A DNA stretch of 59,194 nt from Candidatus Endomicrobiellum porotermitis. GTDB lineage: Bacteria; Elusimicrobiota; Endomicrobiia; Endomicrobiales; Endomicrobiaceae. This document shows positions 47,351 to 58,749 of this stretch, piece after piece (the first letter of the stretch is position 1; the number at the start of each line of letters is the position of its first letter). The DNA is taken from NCBI GenBank assembly GCA_031289055.1, contig JAITQE010000001.1, forward strand, positions 1-59,194, written 5' to 3'. A program made the translations under genes and the position numbers. Under the pieces are notes generated by a model, which saw only the letters and a list, made by a program, of their open reading frames with translations, searched no databases and was not told the origin of the DNA.

Positions 47351-47425
47351 AAAAATGTAGAAAATTATAATAGGCGTCCTCCGGCGCGCTGTTTTAAAAA
47401 TTTGATCTATAGGATACCCGTACAT

Positions 47426-48307
47426 ATGTTGGACAAAGACATATTAAAAAAACAAATACGGCGACTTGAAATAAGGTCAAACAAACTTGTCAACGAGATT
47501 TTTGCCGGACAATATCAGAGCGTTTTTAAAGGTCAGGGAATAGAATTTTCCGAAGTTAGGGAATACCAAATCGGCGATGATTTTAGGAGCATTGACCGAA
47601 ATGTTACCGCAAGGCACGGAAAACCTTTTATAAAACTATTTGCCGAAGAAAGAGAATTAACGGTAATATTCCTTATAGATGTTTCTGCTTCGCAGAATTT
47701 TGGAAGTTCTGATAAATTAAAATCTGAAGTCGTTGCCGAAGCGTCTGCGCTTCTTGCGTTTTCTTCTTTAAAAAATAACGATAGAATAGGCATGCTTTCT
47801 TTCACTGATAAAGTAGAAAAGATTATTAAGCCTCGCAAAGGCAAAAATAATGTTTTAAGAATTATAAACGAAATATTAAGTTCAAATCCTAAAGGCGTTA
47901 AAACTTCAATTTCAACGGCTTTAAGAGCGATAAATGAAATATGGGCTAGAAGGGCTATTGTTTTTTTAATCTCGGACTTTCAAGATGGGAATTATGAAAA
48001 GGATTTAGCGGTAACGGCAAAAAGGCATGATTTGATTTGTATAAGAATAGAAGATAAAAGAGAAGTTGATTTTCCAAAAATAGGTCTTATTGAAATGAAA
48101 GATCCGGAAACAAATGAGACAATAATAGCTGACGCTTCGTCTTTAGCGGAGGACTTCAAACGAAAGGCTTTAGATTTTAAAGATAGCGCTGATAAAATAT
48201 TTAAAAAAGCCGAAGTAGGAGTAATAAATTTAAACGGCAAGGATTCCTATGTAAAGCCTATTATAAAATTTTTTAAAGGAAGAGAAATAAAAGCGGGTTT
48301 GAAATAA
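47426..48307 (+). CDS. DUF58 protein
   Basis: A 293-aa protein with the DUF58 signature (GIEFSEVREYQIGDDFRSIDRN) followed by a von Willebrand A-like fold with a DVSASQNFG metal site. It is the constant companion of MoxR. I start at ATG 47426, not the upstream TTG 47402, because AGGAT at 47411 is spaced acceptably and family members start near there. The next gene starts right after the stop. Confidence 0.9.
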   Translation: MLDKDILKKQIRRLEIRSNKLVNEIFAGQYQSVFKGQGIEFSEVREYQIGDDFRSIDRNVTARHGKPFIKLFAEERELTVIFLIDVSASQNFGSSDKLKSEVVAEASALLAFSSLKNNDRIGMLSFTDKVEKIIKPRKGKNNVLRIINEILSSNPKGVKTSISTALRAINEIWARRAIVFLISDFQDGNYEKDLAVTAKRHDLICIRIEDKREVDFPKIGLIEMKDPETNETIIADASSLAEDFKRKALDFKDSADKIFKKAEVGVINLNGKDSYVKPIIKFFKGREIKAGLK

Positions 48308-49189
48308 ATGCCGAAAATTAAAATTTTTATATTTTGCGTCTCGCTTATTATAAATTGCCGTATGTTTTTGCGTGCGCAAGAAGTTGTAACGGTCTCGTTA
48401 GACAAGGACAAAGCTTATATCGGCGATACGGTTGAACTTGTCGTGAAAGTTGAACTTCCAAAAAACGCTAGAATATCCGCGACTCAAAATTTTAAATTAG
48501 AAGATTTTGAAATTTTGGGGATTGATATTAAACATTTGTCCGCAGATAATAATAGTTATGAATTGAAATTTGATATTTCTGCATATAAAACTGGACGTTT
48601 GACAGTAAACCCTTTGACTGTGTTTTACATAAATCCTGACGGAACGAATAATTTGTTTTTTACTCCCGAAAAAGGCATTGAGATACAAAGTCTTATAACA
48701 GACTCTAAAAATGCAAATATAAAGGACATAAAGGGTTTAAAAAAATTAAGAATAAAATCTTTCTTTATTTTTGCGATTGTTATTGCGGCGGCTCTTATTG
48801 TAATGTTGGCGATATATATCGTAAAAAATATTAGAGAAGAAAGTAAAAAATCAAAAATTGCCGTTCTTGATGAAAGAACAGCGGTTTTAAACAATTTAGA
48901 CGACTTATATCAAAACAGAACAAACCTAACTATAAGAAACTTTTACTACAAAATGTCTGAGATTTTGAGAACGTATATTTCCAAACGATACAAATTTGAC
49001 GCTATGGAAATGACTACGTCGGAATTTTTTGAAAAAGCCAAGGAGTTTTTGCCTGCGGAAATCAACGTAAATGAATTTAAGAGCTATTTAAGAGTTTTTA
49101 ACCTCGCGAGATATTCCGATTTTACGCCGAACGAAAAAGAAATAGAAGATAATTATGTTTTTACGAGAAAACTTCTGGAGTTAATATGA
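48308..49189 (+). CDS. exported membrane protein of the bat locus, BatD-like N-terminus
   Basis: A 293-aa protein with a signal peptide (FIFCVSLIINCRMFLRA), a periplasmic beta domain (about 24-140) similar in style to one BatD repeat (VSLDKDKAYIGDTVELVVKV), one membrane helix (about 154-176) and a cytoplasmic helical tail (FYYKMSEILRTYISKRYKFDAMEMTTSEFFEKAK) like the DUF4381 group. It occupies the slot between DUF58 and batA where such proteins usually lie. No function is proven. It overlaps batA by ATGA. Confidence 0.7.
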   Translation: MPKIKIFIFCVSLIINCRMFLRAQEVVTVSLDKDKAYIGDTVELVVKVELPKNARISATQNFKLEDFEILGIDIKHLSADNNSYELKFDISAYKTGRLTVNPLTVFYINPDGTNNLFFTPEKGIEIQSLITDSKNANIKDIKGLKKLRIKSFFIFAIVIAAALIVMLAIYIVKNIREESKKSKIAVLDERTAVLNNLDDLYQNRTNLTIRNFYYKMSEILRTYISKRYKFDAMEMTTSEFFEKAKEFLPAEINVNEFKSYLRVFNLARYSDFTPNEKEIEDNYVFTRKLLELI

Positions 49190-50187
49190 GGTTTGCGAGT
49201 CCGGGATACATTTTTATATTTTTTGCCGTTTTGATCGCTGCGTTTTTATATATAAATTTTTGGGATAAAAAATTTTTCAATGCTATTGTAATCTTTTCGC
49301 AAGCGAAATTGCTGAAAGCAAACGGGTTGCGTTTAAAAGAAAAACTTTTTAAACTTTTAAATATTTTAAAGTACGTTGCCGTAATTTTGGCGATTGTCGC
49401 TTTTGCAAGACCTCAAAAAGGAACTGTCTACGAGCGGTCAAACGATCGAGGCATAGACATAATAATGGCGTTGGACGCTTCAACAAGTATGCGGTCTTTG
49501 GATTTTAGACCGTTAAACAGAATGGAAGCGGCAAAAAAGGTTACGCAAGATTTTATAAAAGAAAGAAAGTACGACAGAATCGGACTTATTGTTTTTGCGG
49601 GGCTTGCTTTCACGCAATGTCCTCTGACGACTGACAAGGACTCTCTTGTTGAATTTATAAATAATATACAGATCGGCGAGACTGGAATAGACGGCACTGC
49701 TATAGGCTCTGCAATAATGACTTCGGTTAACAGACTAAAAGACAGCGAAGCTAAAAGCAAAATTATAATTCTTGTAACGGACGGCAATAATAATACTGGA
49801 GAAATTGACCCGATAACAGCTTCTCAAATAGCTGGAGAATACAATATAAAAATATACGCAATAGGCGTTGGCAGTCCGGAAGGGGCGATTTATGAAGTTG
49901 ACGATCCGTTTTTTGGAAAACGGGAAGTCAGAGTCGCTCAAGAGGCTATCAACGAAAATATATTGATGGAAATCGCTAAAAATACAGGCGGAGCGTATTT
50001 TAGAGCGCAAGATACAAAATCTTTTGAAAATATTATGAAACGAATAGATAAGTTGGAAAAGTATGACATTGAAGTTACGCAATTTACAAACTATGACGAG
50101 CTTTACAAATACTTCTTGATACCGGCTTTTATTTTATTGTTGCTTATAATAATTTTGGAAAACACTTATTTAAGGAAACTTCCATAG
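49186..50187 (+). CDS. batA: BatA, von Willebrand A membrane protein
   Basis: A 333-aa protein with an N-terminal membrane helix pair, a periplasmic VWA domain holding the metal (MIDAS) motif DASTSMRSLDF, TDKDS and VTDGNNNTGE, and a C-terminal helix (about 306-325). BatA/BatB pairs are linked to stress tolerance and envelope integrity. It is intact. The following 274 bases to batB contain repeat-like sequence and no gene. Confidence 0.9.
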   Translation: MRFASPGYIFIFFAVLIAAFLYINFWDKKFFNAIVIFSQAKLLKANGLRLKEKLFKLLNILKYVAVILAIVAFARPQKGTVYERSNDRGIDIIMALDASTSMRSLDFRPLNRMEAAKKVTQDFIKERKYDRIGLIVFAGLAFTQCPLTTDKDSLVEFINNIQIGETGIDGTAIGSAIMTSVNRLKDSEAKSKIIILVTDGNNNTGEIDPITASQIAGEYNIKIYAIGVGSPEGAIYEVDDPFFGKREVRVAQEAINENILMEIAKNTGGAYFRAQDTKSFENIMKRIDKLEKYDIEVTQFTNYDELYKYFLIPAFILLLLIIILENTYLRKLP

Positions 50188-50461
50188 AATATGGTCGGAC
50201 GTATGCAAACGAGTGCTAGTAAATCGTATCATTGAGCGGGGATGGGGAGCAAAGCAAGCGACAAGAGAAACCCCGGCTTTCGTTACAATGACGATAATAA
50301 TCTGAAACGAATCTCATAGTTGCAATGATGAAAATAGTCGTTAGCAAGAGCGTAAATGCTCAAAGTCGTGCAATCCAGTCGTCAAGTTTTGTCGTCGTGC
50401 TGAACTTGATTTGGCGGCTCGGACGATAGATTGCGGGCAAATCCCGCGTAGGGTTACAAAA
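50188..50461. repeat. intergenic repeat-like block inside the bat operon
   Basis: No open frame of note. The sequence has pieces that resemble widespread bacterial extragenic repeats: CGGCTTTCGTTACAATGACG near 50275-50294, AATCTCATAGTTGCAATGATG near 50310-50330 and TCGTCGTGCTGAACTTGATT near 50392-50411. GGGG/CCCC runs near 50238-50277 could pair. I infer a decayed repeat cluster separating batA and batB. Confidence 0.35.
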
Positions 50462-51457
50462 ATGTTTGCAGATAAAATTTATTTACTGCTTATGTTATTG
50501 ATTCCGGTTTTAGCCGGCTTTCTTTATTTGGCGTTTCGTAAAAGAGTGGCGGATTTGGCGTCGCTTGTGTCTCGGGTCAACTTTTTGTCGCTTACAAATG
50601 TTAATTTAAGCGCTTATAAAGTTAAAAATCTTTTAATTCTTGCGGTTTTGTTCTTTATTATTATTGCTTTGGCGCGTCCGCAATTTGGCGATAAAAAGGA
50701 AACTGTAATAAAAGAATCTTCTGAAATCGTTATAGCTTTAGACGTTTCAAAAAGTATGCTAGCCCAAGATCTGAAGCCGAACAGGATTGAAAAAGCCAAA
50801 GATATGGCGTTAAAGATTGTCGGAGAGAACCCCGGCGAAAAAATAGGCGTTATTGTCTTTGCGGGAACTGCTATGTGGCAGTGCCCCGTGACTTACGATT
50901 ATCAGGCTCTAAAAATGTTCTTACAAAACGTCGAGGCCGACAGTCTTCCTATGGGCGGCACTCAAATAAGCGATGCCGTTATTCTGGCTTCAAAAGCTGT
51001 GGGAAAAGATCTTTTAGGCGGGAAAGTTATGATTTTAATAAGCGACGGAGAAGACCACGATTCAAAAATAAAAGAAGCCGTAAACGAAGCTAAAAAAGCG
51101 GGATTGAAAATTATTGCGGTCGGCATTGGCGCTACGGACGGTTCTCCAGTTCCCGTAAAAGACGAAAATGGAGCAATAAAGGACTATATTAGAGACGGAA
51201 CTGGTCGGGTTGTTGTAAGCAAGATAAACGCGAGTTTGCTCAAAAGCGTTGCCAGTGAAACCGGCGGGAAATATTTTGACGCTTCAGGTAAAGATATTTC
51301 AAGGGAAGTGTCAAAAGCGGTAAGAGATTTAGAAAAAAATAAAAATGAGATCGGCCAAAGGTATGGCAAGACGGACAGATTTCAAATATTCTTATTTGTC
51401 GCTTTGGCGCTGTTGTTTATAGAATTGCTATTTCCTGTAAAGAGATTGAAGAAATGA
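50462..51457 (+). CDS. batB: BatB, von Willebrand A membrane protein
   Basis: A 331-aa paralogue of BatA with the same layout: N-terminal helices, MIDAS motif DVSKSMLAQDL, TDGT-equivalent GGTQIS and ISDGEDHD, C-terminal helix. The frame is open upstream (TTG 50411), but ATG 50462 follows AGGG and gives a normal start with KIYLLLMLLIPVLAGF. The end overlaps batC (ATGA). Confidence 0.9.
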   Translation: MFADKIYLLLMLLIPVLAGFLYLAFRKRVADLASLVSRVNFLSLTNVNLSAYKVKNLLILAVLFFIIIALARPQFGDKKETVIKESSEIVIALDVSKSMLAQDLKPNRIEKAKDMALKIVGENPGEKIGVIVFAGTAMWQCPVTYDYQALKMFLQNVEADSLPMGGTQISDAVILASKAVGKDLLGGKVMILISDGEDHDSKIKEAVNEAKKAGLKIIAVGIGATDGSPVPVKDENGAIKDYIRDGTGRVVVSKINASLLKSVASETGGKYFDASGKDISREVSKAVRDLEKNKNEIGQRYGKTDRFQIFLFVALALLFIELLFPVKRLKK

Positions 51458-52227
51458 AAGTAGAAAAAAGGCTTTTTATTAAAATAATTGTTTTTTTTGC
51501 GCTTTTGGCGCTTCTATTTTTGTTTTTGTTTCTATCAAATAGGAATGTAAGAGGCAATAATAGAGCCGTGCGATATTTTAACAAAGGAAATTTTGAATCG
51601 GCGTCGCAAACTTTTTATAATGAGCTTAAAAATAGTCCCGGAAATTACGTTGTAATTAACAACTCGGCCGGAGCCGACTATAAATTAAATAAGCTAGATG
51701 AAGCGCAGATAAAATATACGGTTGTCATAAATTCTACGGATGCTATAAAAGAAGATAAATTTGCGGCTCTTTACGGTATGGGTAACGTTGAATTCTTAAA
51801 GAATAATTTTGAGAAGTCTTCAGCCTTTTACAAAGAAGCTTTGAAACTTAATCCAAATGATAGAGACGCAAAATACAACCTTGAGCTTGCGTTGCTAAAA
51901 TTAGACGAGAAAAATAACAAACAAGATAGTAAAAAAGATGATAAATATGAAAATGACAAGCGAAAACAAAATCGACAAGAGCGAGATTTAAAAAAGCAGA
52001 TGGAACAAAACGATAAAGCTCAGAAAGAAAATGAAAAAAAACTTCAAGAAAACAAACAAACGGATAAAAGCGAATCTGCGCGACAAAACCAAATAAAAAA
52101 AGATGACAATAAAGATACGCAAGCCGTAATGTTTTTAAACTATTACAATGAAGCTGATAAAAATTCAAATAAACTTAAGAATAGAAACAAAAAACCTTTA
52201 ATAAATCAGCCGCAAGAGGATTGGTAA
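51454..52227 (+). CDS. batC: BatC-like TPR protein
   Basis: A 257-aa protein: one N-terminal membrane helix (about 10-28), then about three TPR units (AVRYFNKGNFESASQTFYNELK, KFAALYGMGNVEFLKNNFEKSSAFYKEALKLNP) and a long, charged Lys/Gln/Glu/Asn-rich tail (about 150-235) predicted as coiled or disordered. Typical BatC is this kind of TPR protein between batB and batD. The tail is unusually low in complexity. Confidence 0.8.
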   Translation: MKVEKRLFIKIIVFFALLALLFLFLFLSNRNVRGNNRAVRYFNKGNFESASQTFYNELKNSPGNYVVINNSAGADYKLNKLDEAQIKYTVVINSTDAIKEDKFAALYGMGNVEFLKNNFEKSSAFYKEALKLNPNDRDAKYNLELALLKLDEKNNKQDSKKDDKYENDKRKQNRQERDLKKQMEQNDKAQKENEKKLQENKQTDKSESARQNQIKKDDNKDTQAVMFLNYYNEADKNSNKLKNRNKKPLINQPQEDW

Positions 52228-53958
52228 ATGATTAAAAAGATATTTTGTTTAGTAATTCTATCGTTTGCGGCATCGTCGTTATATGCGGACGTTATCTCGT
52301 TTAACGCGTCTGTAGATAAAAAAACGGTCGCTTTAAACGATTCTTTTATATATTCAATTACAGTAAGCGGAGACGGAAGAAATCTGCCAGATCATCAAAT
52401 AGGAAATCTATTTGAATTTAACAGGTTTGGCGCGTCTACTTCGCAAAGTATGACTATAGTAAACGGAAAGTCTAACGTGAGCGTTACTTATAGATATACT
52501 TTAGGTCCAAAAAAAATTGGAAAGTTTACGATACCGCCCGCTACGATAACTTATAACGGCAAAACGTACTTAACTGAAAGCGTAGAAATAGAGGTTGCTC
52601 CCGCTAAAAATATTCGGAGCGTTTCTTCCGCAGGTTCAATGCGGGCAAGTGTCCGTAGCCATTCATCGCAAAATCCTCACGGAAAAGCGTTTGTTAAAGC
52701 TTCAGTAAACAAACCGACAGTTTATGAAAATGAAAAACTCGTTTACAAATTTAATTTTTATAGAAACGTTGATTTAATATCCGCTCCTGAATACTATCCT
52801 CCTGATTTTACTGGTTTTTGGAATGACGGCTCTAAACTGAAAGATCGTTACGAAGTTATTGACGGCTCTAACTATCGCGTTGACGAAGTTGATACTATTT
52901 TGTATCCCGTGGGAGCGGGCGTAAAAACGATCGCCCCGACGAAACTTAAAATAACTATTATGGACTTTTCAGGTTCGGACGACGACTTTTTTTCTGTCTT
53001 TTCAAATATGGCGGGAGGATGCGACAAAGTTTTGGAAACAAATCCCGTAGAAGTAAAAGTTATTGCTTTGCCGCAAAAAGGAAGACCTTCGGATTTTACG
53101 GGAGCTGTCGGCAATTTCAAAATAAAAGCTTCGGTTGATAAACAAAATGCCGAAACAAATGAACCCGTAACTTTGACGGTTACGGTGAGCGGCGACGGCA
53201 ATATGAAAAGCGTCGCCGATATACATTTTGGCGATTATAGCGGTTTTAAAAAGTACGACGCGGTTGTTGCAAACGCTTTAGATAATTCAAAGGAATTTAA
53301 AACTATATTTATACCTCAGACTTCCGGAGATAAAGAAATACCCGCGGCAAGCCTTTCTTTTTTTAATCCTGCGAAGAAACGGTATGATACTATAAAAACG
53401 CAACCGCAAATAATAGTCGTAAGAGGCGAATCTGTTTACTTGCCCGATTCTTCCAGCGTAGAATCAGGCGTAGACGCGACTCGTAGCGATATAAATTATA
53501 ACAAGCCGATAAAAAATCTGAAACAATTTAAAGGACATTTTGTAAAAAAACCTTCATTTTATTTAATATTTGCGCCGTTTATTATTTTATTGCCGACAAT
53601 TTTTGCATATAAAAAAATACGGACAAATCCGTTGAGAAAAAATATTTCTTCTGTTGCAAAAATTCAAAAACTCTTAAAGAACGCGGAGTTTGAAGTTTCA
53701 AAGAATAATTTGAACTCGGCTGTAAATTTAATTTATCAATCTTTAATGGAGATTATAACTATTAAAATAGGAATAGCGTCTGACAACTTGTCCGGAGTTC
53801 AAATAAACGAACGACTATTAAATTCAGTAGCGGATAAAGCCTATATTGCCAAGATAATGGAAATATGCGACAAACTTAACTTCTATAAGTTTGCTTCCGT
53901 AAGTTTAGACAAAGAGTCCGTAAAGATTTTAATATATAATATAAAATCTTTGATTTGA
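52228..53958 (+). CDS. batD: BatD, periplasmic repeat protein
   Basis: A 576-aa exported protein: signal peptide ending SSLYA, three or so immunoglobulin-like beta domains (repeats of the type VNKPTVYENEKLVYKF and VDKQNAETNEPVTLTV), then a membrane helix near residue 450 and a cytoplasmic helical domain. It matches BatD in size and order. It ends the operon; the peptidase relic follows 40 bases later. Confidence 0.85.
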   Translation: MIKKIFCLVILSFAASSLYADVISFNASVDKKTVALNDSFIYSITVSGDGRNLPDHQIGNLFEFNRFGASTSQSMTIVNGKSNVSVTYRYTLGPKKIGKFTIPPATITYNGKTYLTESVEIEVAPAKNIRSVSSAGSMRASVRSHSSQNPHGKAFVKASVNKPTVYENEKLVYKFNFYRNVDLISAPEYYPPDFTGFWNDGSKLKDRYEVIDGSNYRVDEVDTILYPVGAGVKTIAPTKLKITIMDFSGSDDDFFSVFSNMAGGCDKVLETNPVEVKVIALPQKGRPSDFTGAVGNFKIKASVDKQNAETNEPVTLTVTVSGDGNMKSVADIHFGDYSGFKKYDAVVANALDNSKEFKTIFIPQTSGDKEIPAASLSFFNPAKKRYDTIKTQPQIIVVRGESVYLPDSSSVESGVDATRSDINYNKPIKNLKQFKGHFVKKPSFYLIFAPFIILLPTIFAYKKIRTNPLRKNISSVAKIQKLLKNAEFEVSKNNLNSAVNLIYQSLMEIITIKIGIASDNLSGVQINERLLNSVADKAYIAKIMEICDKLNFYKFASVSLDKESVKILIYNIKSLI

Positions 53959-54314: not shown

Positions 54315-54473
54315 ATGGAAAAGCGGAAATGTTCTGTATGTGGAGATATTTATGATCCGTCGGTAGGAGACCCCGATAAAGGAATTGTTCCCGGAACGCC
54401 TTTTGAACGGCTGCCTGAAGACTGGGTATGCCCAGTTTGCGGTCAACCGAAATCTGTTTTTGAAATAGTATAG
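54315..54473 (+). CDS. rubredoxin
   Basis: A 52-aa iron-sulfur electron carrier. The iron ligands are CSVC near the N-terminus and CPVC near the C-terminus, with [23 protein letters not shown] between them, the canonical rubredoxin spacing. It begins with ATG preceded by AAGGAGGG, a near perfect ribosome site. It can deliver electrons to the flavodiiron protein and rubrerythrin encoded downstream. Confidence 0.95.
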
Positions 54474-54488
54474 CGAGAAGACCGACTT

Positions 54489-55745
54489 ATGAAGCGAATA
54501 TATTTGGATAATCAGTCTAACGCCAGACTTGATGAAAGAGTTTTTGACGTTATGAAGCCGTTTTTTCTTGAGTATTACGGTAATCCTCAGAGCATTTATT
54601 CTTTGGGTTGCGTCTCTAAAGATGCTCTTGAAATTGCAAGAAAACAAGTTGCAGACTACGTACACGCCGACGCCGGCGAGATTATTTTTACATCTTGCGG
54701 CACTGAATCAAATAATTTGGCGATAAAAGGCGTCGCCGAAGCCTTAAAGCCTAAAGGCGAGCATATTGTGGTGTCGGCTATAGAGCATTTTTCTGTTTTA
54801 AATGCTGTAAAAAAGCTTCAAAGAGATGGTTTTGAAATAACTTATATTCCCGTTGATGAAAAAGGGAATGTAAGCGAAGCGAAACTTTTAAAAGCGTTGC
54901 GGAAAGATACGTTCTTGGTTTCAATACAGTATTCCAATAGCGAAGTCGGCACTATACAAGATATAAAAAAATTGGCTTCAGAGGTTAAAAATAGAAAGGT
55001 TAATGATTTTATTGTTTTTCATACCGATGCGGTAAGCGCTGGCGGCATGATGCCTATAGATGTAAAAGAGTTGGGCGTTGACGCTCTGACACTATCGTCT
55101 TCGGTAATGTACGGACCAAAAGGAATCGCGGCCCTATATCTAAAAAAAGGCTTACGTATTGTTCCTCAGATGGACGGAGGCGTACAGGAGCATTCTAAGC
55201 GCGCAGGGACTGAAAATATTCCCGCTATTGTGGGTTTTGGAAAAGCCTGCGAAATAGCTAAAGAAGAAACTATAGCCAATAGCAGAAAGATTGAGAAATT
55301 AAGAAATAAACTTATAGAAGAGCTTCCAAAGAGAATAGAACATATTTATTTAAACGGAGCTTTGGAGAATCGTCTTTCAGGCAATGTAAATTTTTCAATT
55401 GAGTTTGTGGAAGGAGAAGCGTTGTTTTTGCTTTTAGACGCTAAGGGTATTATGGCGGCAAGCGGTTCGGCTTGCGCAAATAAGAATCTTAAAATGTCGC
55501 ATGTTTTAGATGCTATGAAAGTTGACGTTGCCGTTGGACAAGGTTCAATTTTGTTTACTTTGTCAAAGTATAATACGGAAGAAGATATAGGCTATGTTCT
55601 TGAAGAGTTCCCTAAGATTGTTAAAAGGCTTAGAGACATGTCGCCTCTATATTCTTATTTTATTCAAACTGGGAAAAGAAAACCTGCGGGGACACAGACA
55701 GATTTTGACGGTCGCGACCATTGTCATTGCGGTATAGAAGTATAG
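54489..55745 (+). CDS. IscS/NifS-family protein lacking the PLP lysine
   Basis: A 418-aa class V aminotransferase fold with clear IscS ancestry: LDNQSNARLD, TSCGTESNNLAIKG, IEHFSVL (His100), HTDAVSAGG with Asp180, GTENIPAIVGFG and the mobile sulfur-carrying Cys329 in SGSACAN. The pyridoxal-phosphate lysine is absent: where IscS has S-x-H-K, residues 203-206 read Ser-Ser-Ser-Val. Gln183 is Ser, and NNEVGT is NSEVGT. So it should not bind PLP covalently or desulfurate cysteine. A similar lysine-less IscS is known from Archaeoglobus, where it forms a cluster scaffold with IscU. A His/Cys-containing tail (DHCHCGIEV) is extra. IscU follows 90 bases after the stop. Confidence 0.85.
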   Translation: MKRIYLDNQSNARLDERVFDVMKPFFLEYYGNPQSIYSLGCVSKDALEIARKQVADYVHADAGEIIFTSCGTESNNLAIKGVAEALKPKGEHIVVSAIEHFSVLNAVKKLQRDGFEITYIPVDEKGNVSEAKLLKALRKDTFLVSIQYSNSEVGTIQDIKKLASEVKNRKVNDFIVFHTDAVSAGGMMPIDVKELGVDALTLSSSVMYGPKGIAALYLKKGLRIVPQMDGGVQEHSKRAGTENIPAIVGFGKACEIAKEETIANSRKIEKLRNKLIEELPKRIEHIYLNGALENRLSGNVNFSIEFVEGEALFLLLDAKGIMAASGSACANKNLKMSHVLDAMKVDVAVGQGSILFTLSKYNTEEDIGYVLEEFPKIVKRLRDMSPLYSYFIQTGKRKPAGTQTDFDGRDHCHCGIEV

Positions 55746-55835: not shown

Positions 55836-56210
55836 ATGGCGTTTTATTCTGAAAAAGTTATGGATCATTTTGCAAATCCAAGAAATGTAGGAGAAATAAA
55901 GGACGCTGACGGCGTAGGAGAAGTAGGAAATCCTGTGTGCGGCGATATGATGACTTTTTACATAAAAGTTGAAGACAATAAAATAAAAGACGTAAAATTT
56001 AAAACTTTTGGGTGCGGAGCGGCGATAGCGGTTTCTTCCATGGTTTCCGAGATGGCTTTAGGCAAAACGGTTGATGAAGTTGTGAAAATTACAAACGACG
56101 ACGTGGCTAAATCTTTGGGAGGGCTTCCTCCAAATAAACTGCATTGCTCCAATCTTGGCGCCGACGCATTGCACAAAGCGATAGAAGATTACAAAAATAA
56201 TAAAAAATAA
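55836..56210 (+). CDS. iscU: IscU-type iron-sulfur scaffold
   Basis: A 124-aa scaffold on which 2Fe-2S or 4Fe-4S clusters are built. Ligands are Cys35 (GNPVCGD with Asp37), Cys60 (TFGCGAAIA) and Cys104 (LHCSNLG), all present. The LPPNK chaperone-recognition sequence precedes the last cysteine (LPPNKLHC). The TTG at 55824 is the alternative start, but GGAGG at 55826-55830 points to ATG 55836. It pairs with the lysine-less IscS homologue. Confidence 0.94.
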   Translation: MAFYSEKVMDHFANPRNVGEIKDADGVGEVGNPVCGDMMTFYIKVEDNKIKDVKFKTFGCGAAIAVSSMVSEMALGKTVDEVVKITNDDVAKSLGGLPPNKLHCSNLGADALHKAIEDYKNNKK

Positions 56211-56229: not shown

Positions 56230-56439
56230 ATGGGTAGCTGTAATTGTCATTCTCGCTCTAATTCTAGCGGCTGTTTGCGCCCTCATTTCAAAGACGAATT
56301 AAAAAACGGCTGCATGAGTCCAACGTTTTGCAAACCGTGCGGATCAAAGAATAAAAACGTTAAAGTTTGTTCAGTTTGCGGAGCTGAATACTCTTTGGAA
56401 TACGAGAAGTGTCCCGCCTGTTCCGTAATATGCGAGTAA
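56230..56439 (+). CDS. small Cys-rich protein with rubredoxin/zinc-ribbon-like end
   Basis: A 69-aa protein with 11 cysteines. The first half has scattered Cys and His (SCNCHSRSNSSGC, GCMSPTFCKPC); the second half forms a CSVC...CPAC knuckle, with AEYSLEYEK between, like a shortened rubredoxin or zinc ribbon. I recognise no named family for the whole. It follows IscU by 19 bases, so a role as an iron or cluster carrier is a reasonable guess. Confidence 0.65.
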   Translation: MGSCNCHSRSNSSGCLRPHFKDELKNGCMSPTFCKPCGSKNKNVKVCSVCGAEYSLEYEKCPACSVICE

Positions 56440-56545: not shown

Positions 56546-57736
56546 ATGGCCGCAAAGATAGTAAAAGACGGCGTATACGCTGTTGGAGCCGTAGACTGGA
56601 ATGAAAGACGCTTTCACGGACATGCGTACGTAACCAAACGAGGCGTTACGTATAATTCTTACCTAATTCTTGATGAAAAAGCTGCTCTAATTGATACGGT
56701 TCGCAAAGGTTTTGAAAAAGAATTTTTAGAGAATATAAAAAATATAATAGACCCGTCAAAAATTGGCATAATTATTATCAATCACATTGAGCCTGATCAT
56801 TCCGGATCGTTCCCAGAAGTTTTAAAAGCGTGTCCTAACGCTAAAGTTTACGGAACTGAAAAAGCAAGACAAGGTCTTTTAAAATATTACGGCGTAAGCG
56901 GACAATGGACCGTCGTAAAATCCGGTCAAAGTTTGAACATTGGCAAGAGAACTTTGGAATTTATAGATGTCCCGATGATACATTGGCCCGATAGCATGTT
57001 TACATATTGCGCATATGATAAAATCTTGTTTTCAAACGACGGATTTGGGCAACATTATGCGACTAACAAACTTTTTGACGACGAAGTTGATTTTGAAGCC
57101 TTAATGGAAGAAGCTCAAAAATATTATGCCAATATTCTTTGGCCATTTAGTATGCTTGTTGCTTCTAAGCTTGACGCTATAAGCAAACTAAATCTTGCCG
57201 TTGATTTTATCGCTCCAAGCCACGGACTCGTTTGGCGTAAACATATTTCCGACATTATGGAAAAATATTTTTACTGGTCTGCCCATAAATGTAAGAAAAG
57301 GATAGCGATTGTTTATGAAACAATGTGGCGTTCCACTGAAAAAATGGCGAGAAAAATTGTTGAAGGCATAACTTCAGAGGGCGTTGAAGCTGTTCTTTTT
57401 GATGTTACAAAAAACGACAGGACAGACGTCGCTTCCTATATGCTAGACGCGAAAGGTTGGCTTTTCGGCTCTTCAACTCACGACGGGGAAATGCTTCCCG
57501 TGATTGCGGGATTTTTACATTTCTTAAAAGGCTCCAAGGCCAAAGGGCGCAAGTCTTTTGCTTTTGGCTCTTACGGTTGGAGCGGCGAGGCGGCAAAAGA
57601 TATAGAAGATACAATTTCTAACGTTACGACTTTTGACCAGTCTTTGAGAGTTGTTTTTAATCCTACGGAAGAAGAATTAAATAAGTGTTTTGAAGCGGGC
57701 AAATCGTTTGCTTTAAAAATAAAAAACGAAGAATAA
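56546..57736 (+). CDS. flavodiiron protein (FprA-like)
   Basis: A 396-aa O2/NO reductase. The N-terminal metallo-beta-lactamase-like domain has the diiron ligands HIEPDHSGSFPE, a following HWPDSMF, FSNDGFGQH and APSHGLVWR. The C-terminal flavodoxin domain (about 250-396) binds FMN (VYETMWRSTEKMARKI). It takes electrons from rubredoxin and reduces O2 to water. A TTG-type upstream extension is open, but AAAGGAG before ATG 56546 gives the usual FprA start. Confidence 0.92.
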   Translation: MAAKIVKDGVYAVGAVDWNERRFHGHAYVTKRGVTYNSYLILDEKAALIDTVRKGFEKEFLENIKNIIDPSKIGIIIINHIEPDHSGSFPEVLKACPNAKVYGTEKARQGLLKYYGVSGQWTVVKSGQSLNIGKRTLEFIDVPMIHWPDSMFTYCAYDKILFSNDGFGQHYATNKLFDDEVDFEALMEEAQKYYANILWPFSMLVASKLDAISKLNLAVDFIAPSHGLVWRKHISDIMEKYFYWSAHKCKKRIAIVYETMWRSTEKMARKIVEGITSEGVEAVLFDVTKNDRTDVASYMLDAKGWLFGSSTHDGEMLPVIAGFLHFLKGSKAKGRKSFAFGSYGWSGEAAKDIEDTISNVTTFDQSLRVVFNPTEEELNKCFEAGKSFALKIKNEE

Positions 57737-57757
57737 GCGTTTTTTGTAGGAGTCGCT

Positions 57758-58138
57758 ATGAAAGGATTAGTTTGCAAAGTCTACGGTTATGTCGCGTTAG
57801 ACGGAAACAAGTCCGATGCAAAACCCCTGATTTTAAAGCGGTTTCAGGAGAATCTGAAAAGAAACATATTCCTGCTTTTACGGTTGTCAACGAATGCGGT
57901 TTAATGCCAGGCAACGGCTGTAGTTGATGTTTATGTGAAAATAGGAGAAATTCTTCATCCCGCATTGACGGAACATAGCATAACGGAAATAACTTTTTAT
58001 CTTGATAATAAATTTATCGCCAATGTTATGTTGACGGCGGATGTAATTCATTTGAAGAGCGGCGCAAAAGGGAAAGCGCGAGCAATAGAAAACTGCAATG
58101 CGCATGGCAAATGGTTTAATGAAGTTGAGATAAAATAG
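57758..58138 (+). pseudogene. superoxide reductase (desulfoferrodoxin-family) relic
   Basis: A gene with intact start (GTAGGAG, ATG 57758) but broken body. Frame 1 gives MKGLVCKVYGYVALDGNKSD. A shift then gives DFKAVSGESEKKHIPAFTVVNECGLMPGNGCS to TGA at about 57928. A further shift leads to VDVYVKIGEILHPALTEHSITEITFYLD and later AIENCNAHGKW to the stop at 58138. Conserved iron ligands (His of EKKHIPAF, His of LHP and EHSI, Cys and His of CNAHG) survive across frames. Part of the N-terminal rubredoxin-like module appears deleted (the CPxCG pair is gone). At least two frameshifts. Confidence 0.8.
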
Positions 58139-58170: not shown

Positions 58171-58749
58171 ATGGCTAAGTCAGTTAAAGGTACAAAAACA
58201 GAAAAGCGCTTGTTAGAGTCGTTTGCCGGAGAGTCTCAGGCTAGAACGAGATATGCGTATTTTGCTTCAAAAGCGAAAAAAGAAGGATTTGAACAGATAG
58301 CTGCTATTTTCACAGAGACTGCGGATAACGAAAAAGAGCATGCCGAGAGATTCTTTAAATTTTTGGAAGGAGGCTCTCTTGAAATAACAGGCGCTTTCCC
58401 CGCCGGTATTATCAGCGACACTGTTGAAAATTTGAAACTTGCGGCTGCAGGCGAAAATAAAGAGCATACTAAGCTTTATCCTACTGCCGCTGAAGTTGCG
58501 GAAAAAGAGGGATTTCCGGAAATAGCGGAATGTTTTAGAAATATAAGTATTGCTGAAAAACATCATGAAGCAAGATATTTGGAGCTTGTTGATAATCTTG
58601 AAAACGATAGAGTTTTTAAGAAAGATGCGCTAATAAAATGGAAGTGTCGTAATTGCGGATTTGTTTATGAAAGCAAAGAAGCTTACGAAAAGTGTCCTGC
58701 CTGCTTGCACACTAGGGCGTACATGGAGGAACTTGCGGATAATTTCTAA
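58171..58749 (+). CDS. rubrerythrin
   Basis: A 192-aa peroxide-reducing protein. The four-helix diiron domain (about 1-150) supplies ligands ESFAGESQARTRY, DNEKEHAERFF, AEKEGFPEIAECFR and AEKHHEARY. A rubredoxin-like C-terminal domain (CRNCGFVYESKEAYEKCPAC) passes electrons. All ligands are present. It lies behind the broken superoxide reductase gene with a 32-base gap and a GGGGG site before the ATG. Confidence 0.95.
   Translation: MAKSVKGTKTEKRLLESFAGESQARTRYAYFASKAKKEGFEQIAAIFTETADNEKEHAERFFKFLEGGSLEITGAFPAGIISDTVENLKLAAAGENKEHTKLYPTAAEVAEKEGFPEIAECFRNISIAEKHHEARYLELVDNLENDRVFKKDALIKWKCRNCGFVYESKEAYEKCPACLHTRAYMEELADNF

Follow-up and report, generated by a model that had tools for sequence, protein, structure and literature searches.

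Fe-S clusters are usually assumed to draw their sulfur from cysteine, by way of a PLP-dependent desulfurase. What, then, does an IscS-like protein contribute to IscU when its PLP lysine is missing? This question is raised by a gene of Candidatus Endomicrobiellum porotermitis, an endosymbiont of termite-gut flagellates with a draft genome of 1.04 Mb (assembly 92% complete). The gene lies in a stretch of 59,194 nucleotides that we call the window.

Proteins of this kind are already known from archaea. A. fulgidus IscS has no activity because its lysine is replaced by Asp, and it gives a cysteine ligand to the IscU cluster (PMC7585200). M. acetivorans IscS1, which was noted to lack the catalytic lysine as well, is also encoded with IscU (PMC7585200). 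We found no report of a bacterial lysine-less IscS in the literature searched, which left out most subscription papers, so an earlier mention is possible. What we add here is that lysine-less IscS is a recurrent, conserved state in many anaerobic groups.

Catalytic residues are lost together and the loop cysteine is kept

The gene is an uninterrupted reading frame with an ATG start (Table 1). We aligned its product with E. coli IscS, whose sequence was verified letter for letter against PDB 1p3w, and found 42% identity. As the original prediction had read from the DNA, Ser205-Val206 stands opposite His205-Lys206 and Ser183 opposite Gln183, while Cys329 matches E. coli Cys328 and Asp180 is shared; the TCG and GTA codons do lie in clean coding sequence. 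The alignment and a residue table show that N155 and R354 are replaced as well. The missing residues are the Schiff-base lysine, cofactor contacts and the arginine that holds the substrate carboxylate (E. coli R354). The protein scores below every NCBIfam desulfurase cut-off, including TIGR03402 (459.5 against 530.75) and TIGR02006 (366 against 643).

Table 1. Features of the lysine-less IscS gene and its cluster in the window
Feature	Position	Strand	Remarks
Rubredoxin	54315..54473	+	PF00301, 77 bits; first cluster gene, 15 nt upstream of lysine-less IscS
Lysine-less IscS/NifS-like protein, 418 aa	54489..55745	+	PF00266, 242.6 bits; putative non-enzymatic IscU partner
Codons of residues 180-183, Asp-Ala-Val-Ser	55026..55037	+	Asp180 retained, Gln183 replaced by Ser
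TCG GTA, Ser205-Val206	55101..55106	+	His-Lys position of the PLP site
TGC, Cys329	55473..55475	+	Equivalent to E. coli Cys328 and A. fulgidus Cys321
C-terminal extension, SPLYSYF...DHCHC	55653..55742	+	
IscU scaffold	55836..56210	+	TIGR03419, 207.6 bits, above cut-off; NifU_N type
69-aa protein rich in Cys pairs, double-ribbon-like	56230..56439	+	No family above cut-off
Flavodiiron (ODP/flavodoxin) protein	56546..57736	+	PF19583, PF00258; position conserved
Desulfoferrodoxin/superoxide reductase gene, decayed	57755-58138		Pieces in different frames, internal stop
Rubrerythrin	58171..58749	+	PF02915, 108.9 bits; cluster end

To place these substitutions, we tabulated active-site residues in 81 lysine-bearing and 85 lysine-less rows, using E. 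coli numbering. Lys206, His205 and Gln183 occur in 100% of the lysine-bearing rows, Arg354 in 98% and Asn155 in 93%. Both K206 and R354 are gone from all 85 lysine-less rows (Arg at position 354, 0%), and H205, Q183 and N155 are gone from most. Cys328, Asp180, His104 and Glu77 are retained in 100% of these rows, Thr76/Ser is also kept, and the loop cysteine is invariant in two sequence alignments as well. The lysine, the cofactor contacts and the carboxylate arginine are thus absent but the cysteine that reaches IscU is kept, which makes the loss a concerted one. Since Asp180 and His104 are fully retained, a B6-type (PLP/PMP-like) ligand may still bind, and the pocket is perhaps not simply dead.

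The window protein has the fold-type I aminotransferase class V fold by both PF00266 and Foldseek. An AlphaFold2 model built from 44 lysine-less sequences reached a pLDDT of 89.9, and its nearest folds in Foldseek were human Nfs1 complexes, A. fulgidus IscS and E. coli IscS. TM scores to IscS/Nfs1 structures were 0.85-0.91, consistent with the earlier view that the overall fold is kept, and the rmsd to the A. fulgidus structures was 1.1-1.4 Å. The Cys329 loop (residues 328-333) has pLDDT below 50 and is predicted to be flexible; the last 12 residues are disordered too. These residues belong to a C-terminal extension that is common to Elusimicrobiota members, often with a His- and acid-rich end, and missing from nearly all other lysine-less IscS proteins (L087 has one). 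We conjecture that it binds metal near IscU.

Could a sequencing error or a decaying pseudogene account for these losses? Such a reading is favored by the reduced genome of this endosymbiont and by the broken superoxide reductase gene of the same cluster. Against it, the same residue losses are seen in orthologues from the window's genus up to its family, order and class, with identities of 51-94%. They also recur in relatives of both free-living and endosymbiotic habit, and outside the phylum. Pairwise dN/dS of the lysine-less orthologues is 0.07-0.20, showing that they are under purifying selection, while the superoxide reductase gene in the window's cluster has decayed. Because orthologues share the loss at such low dN/dS values, it is more than chance or error, and we regard this explanation as refuted, with next to no probability left to it.

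The partner IscU lies in an oxygen-defense gene cluster

The IscU gene downstream encodes the three ligand cysteines that had been reported for it (C37, C63 and C106), along with D39 and H105. A genome search found it to be the single true IscU in the assembly. Its motifs depart from the usual ones, with LPPNK in place of LPPVK and HCSNLG in place of HCSVLA. LPPVK is the HscA-binding motif of IscU.

The surrounding genes agree with the anaerobic setting that was first proposed, since the operon encodes rubredoxin, a flavodiiron protein, a decayed superoxide reductase and rubrerythrin. The order in the window's genus is rubredoxin, lysine-less IscS, IscU, Cys-rich protein and flavodiiron protein, joined at several loci by superoxide reductase and rubrerythrin. 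Rubredoxin keeps its position in nearly all relatives of the same genus. Superoxide reductase, unlike in the window, is intact in one frame at L101, L178 and L179. The genome of E. proavitum (G075) has all seven genes: rubredoxin, lysine-less IscS, IscU, Cys-rich protein, flavodiiron protein, superoxide reductase and rubrerythrin. As E. proavitum is a cultured isolate with the whole cluster, sulfide-based assembly by IscU and IscS is directly testable.

The 69-aa protein usually adjoins iscU across the window's class, and its homologues have the same cysteine pattern. Since neither IscA nor Mrp turned up, it is a candidate cluster carrier or metal protein. Directly upstream of the cluster (47402-53958) is a Bat-type (aerotolerance) set of DUF58-like, vWA, TPR and BatD-like proteins; BatD-like ORFs precede the cluster in several relatives too.

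Lysine-less IscS is found in many anaerobic groups

Among 245 genomes of the phylum, the lysine-less type occurs in the window's class (families f1-f11) and in parts of f12, f14 and f15. It is absent from families f13, f16, f21 and f22 in the same survey, which rules out a distribution across all Elusimicrobiota. Outside the phylum, we gathered 80 loci with a profile led by the A. fulgidus protein. Lysine-less proteins account for 33 of them (a count that includes L101), and span about 17 phylum-level groups of bacteria and archaea; the cysteine is kept in all. The bacteria are Chloroflexota, Planctomycetota, Bacillota, Thermodesulfobacteriota, Margulisiibacteriota, Saganbacteria, WOR-3/Stahlbacteria and Rokubacteria, and several archaeal phyla are represented, although many of these genomes are MAGs, so single phylum assignments may be wrong. 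Most lysine-less genes in the locus survey adjoin iscU.

The host retains a lysine-bearing desulfurase elsewhere in its genome

The original prediction had called for a search for a second, lysine-bearing desulfurase, and the genome does encode one. This protein (L001) lies on a separate contig (G000:C22), with the motif SAHKFNGPKG and a complete motif set. We rejected a third class-V protein, L003, as a hidden desulfurase because its SGSQK motif is, by inspection, that of an alanine/serine-glyoxylate-type aminotransferase. SufBD, IscA, Mrp/ApbC and frataxin had no match in the 92% complete assembly, each absence being provisional at that level. SufBD was missing from 59 of 60 relatives and detected in 14 of 14 controls. 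The window's genome therefore has a two-gene IscS-IscU pair in an assembly in which we found no SUF system, A-type carrier, frataxin or other scaffold.

What does the lysine-bearing enzyme do in these genomes? In the window's own genus its gene is unlinked to the lysine-less gene. Among relatives, no more than about 300 bases separate it from mnmA on G036:C44, G038:C10, G039:C20, G040:C30, G042:C129 and G049:C64, and G055 and G058 have the order canonical desulfurase, iscU, mnmA. This proximity to mnmA would explain its retention by tRNA thiolation, and suggests that tRNA thiolation is its conserved job. A different arrangement is found in at least eight genomes of the same family (L172-L177, L185 and L190), where a canonical SGHK gene lies directly upstream of the lysine-less gene. 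Where the contig continues, iscU then follows the lysine-less gene; the L177 contig stops inside it. The order at L053 is lysine-less gene, iscU, canonical gene, and at L115, from Dehalococcoidia, a canonical gene occurs in the same stretch. Tandem genes of the two types make cooperation, with persulfide passed in trans, a serious alternative.

To ask how often a lysine-less IscS occurs with no other desulfurase, we took 31 genomes that encode the lysine-less protein, all from outside the phylum, and inspected their class-V proteins. A lysine-bearing IscS- or SufS-type protein was present in 26. We detected none in G268, G274, G276, G280 and G283, four of these five being draft MAGs. The G280 genome, from Dehalococcoidia, is a single chromosome record of 1.12 Mb, and its sole other class-V protein carries an SGSQK motif of the serine-glyoxylate aminotransferase type. 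It also encodes one SufB-like protein; an SMS-like scaffold could thus serve there, which weakens the claim of a sole role for its lysine-less pair. G021 encodes lysine-less IscS, IscU and MnmA with no canonical gene, and was left out of this evidence at 66% completeness. As far as gene content can tell, genomes with a lysine-less pair and no lysine-bearing desulfurase favor sulfide as a usable sulfur source.

A proposed pseudo-desulfurase partner of IscU

The closest precedent is A. fulgidus IscS (PDB 4eb5, 4eb7 and 4hvk), and the likeness originally drawn to it stands up to comparison. In both proteins the PLP lysine, Gln183 and R354 are replaced (position 354 is Leu in each), and the loop cysteine, the adjacent IscU and the fold are shared. 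They differ in that identity is 44% and that Asn-Asp occupies the site of Ser-Val in the window protein. Unlike the archaeal protein, ours is bacterial, lies in an oxygen-defense cluster and has a C-terminal extension, and its host also has a canonical desulfurase. M. acetivorans IscS1, by description, resembles it in lacking the catalytic lysine and in being encoded with IscU; that protein is archaeal, formed inclusion bodies and was never studied as an active protein.

Other known systems match in part. Canonical IscS/NifS proteins (E. coli IscS, TIGR03402, TIGR02006) share the fold, loop cysteine, His104, Asp180 and IscU partner, whereas the window protein lacks Lys206, His205, Gln183, Asn155 and Arg354 and scores under the curated cut-offs. 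MIS systems are IscS-IscU pairs with a cysteine desulfurase (PMC12442378, PMC12192291). Like the pair described here, MisS-MisU has two genes and no SUF or A-type carriers; however, MisS is described as a cysteine desulfurase, and the window protein is without the residues for that reaction. In MIS surveys and in 'cysteine desulfurase' annotations of anaerobes, the lysine needs checking. The SMS system (SmsCB) of methanogens assembles Fe-S clusters from sulfide without a cysteine desulfurase (PMC12192291), and so provides a precedent for sulfide chemistry. Its SufBC-type scaffold is unrelated to IscU, and SufBD was not found in the window's assembly.

By analogy with A. fulgidus, we consider it about an even call that the window protein is a non-enzymatic IscS that gives IscU a cysteine ligand, with the cluster made from iron and sulfide. 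Such a protein would have the IscS fold but would have lost the ability to link PLP to a lysine, to hold cysteine by its carboxylate and to remove its sulfur. This pseudo-desulfurase would retain its mobile cysteine and its IscU partner. The dimer would dock IscU, and the loop cysteine would reach the three-cysteine site as a fourth ligand. A [2Fe-2S] cluster would form meanwhile from iron and sulfide and then be handed on. IscU binding, cluster ligation and the use of sulfide are what we infer here. The originally proposed choice of sulfide over cysteine sulfur holds in part: genomes with a lysine-less pair and no desulfurase speak for it, and the lysine-bearing enzyme of the host and its tandem placement in related genomes speak against it. 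The sequences fit both sulfide and a persulfide from a second desulfurase as the sulfur that reaches IscU.

The second of these sources belongs to a relay in which a canonical desulfurase passes a persulfide to Cys329 of its lysine-less partner, in a hetero-oligomer or in trans, and from there to IscU, so that the sulfur still comes from cysteine. The tandem loci, L053 and L115 speak for the relay, as does the acceptor cysteine, which is invariant in the lysine-less rows. The unlinked canonical gene in the window's genus, its place beside mnmA in other relatives and the five of 31 genomes without a lysine-bearing desulfurase argue the other way, as does the ligand role of A. fulgidus IscS (PMC7585200). 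We see the relay as possible, with a probability well short of even. An accessory function under oxygen stress, in which the pair stores or repairs clusters and the main assembly route lies elsewhere, would account for the conserved company of rubredoxin and flavodiiron protein and, at several loci including those of the window's genus and E. proavitum, of superoxide reductase and rubrerythrin. However, the pair holds the only true IscU of a genome in which SufBD was not found, so it is hardly accessory alone there, and in archaea and some members of the class the pair has no stress genes next to it. We judge this function unlikely.

Might the protein still be a PLP enzyme, with another lysine as a substitute and cysteine or another thiol as its substrate? 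Its loop, SACANKNLKMS, offers K332 and K335, and among lysine-less rows 92% of those from Elusimicrobiota and 85% of the archaeal ones have Lys at position 331 (E. coli numbering). The retention of Asp180, His104 and Thr76/Ser also fits a pocket of this kind. However, R354, H205, Q183 and N155 are lost too, and A. fulgidus IscS has the same loop lysine (SACSSK) yet no desulfurase activity (PMC7585200). These observations make continued PLP catalysis very improbable. For the non-enzymatic partner that we prefer, the consequence would be that, in one bacterial class, the usually single IscU has what these sequences predict to be a catalytically dead partner.

Descent of the lysine-less proteins

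Did these proteins arise once or repeatedly? We computed trees after removing active-site columns. A quick tree required 3 changes between the lysine and lysine-less states, compared to a mean of 31 for shuffled states. When all lysine-less rows were forced into one clade, the likelihood was 7 lnL units better than that of the free search, and the AU test did not reject this clade (p-AU 0.558). One old origin common to the bacterial proteins and A. fulgidus IscS is therefore possible. A wider reading, which we offer tentatively and as more doubtful than the role proposed for the window protein itself, is that a large non-catalytic IscS family of one old origin, in archaea and many anaerobic bacterial phyla, uses sulfide directly to build clusters on IscU. 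The pair would then be the sole IscU-based route in Endomicrobia, with the true desulfurase reserved for tRNA thiolation.

Three further proteins were unusual. L145 is a His-Lys protein nested within bacterial lysine-less IscS in the quick tree, either a regained lysine or a misplaced row. L244 (G294, Rokubacteria) is an odd IscS paralogue with His-Met at the His-Lys site and R354 kept, and L265 (G264, Bathyarchaeota) is another, with Tyr-Lys at that site and Glu at the Asp180 position.
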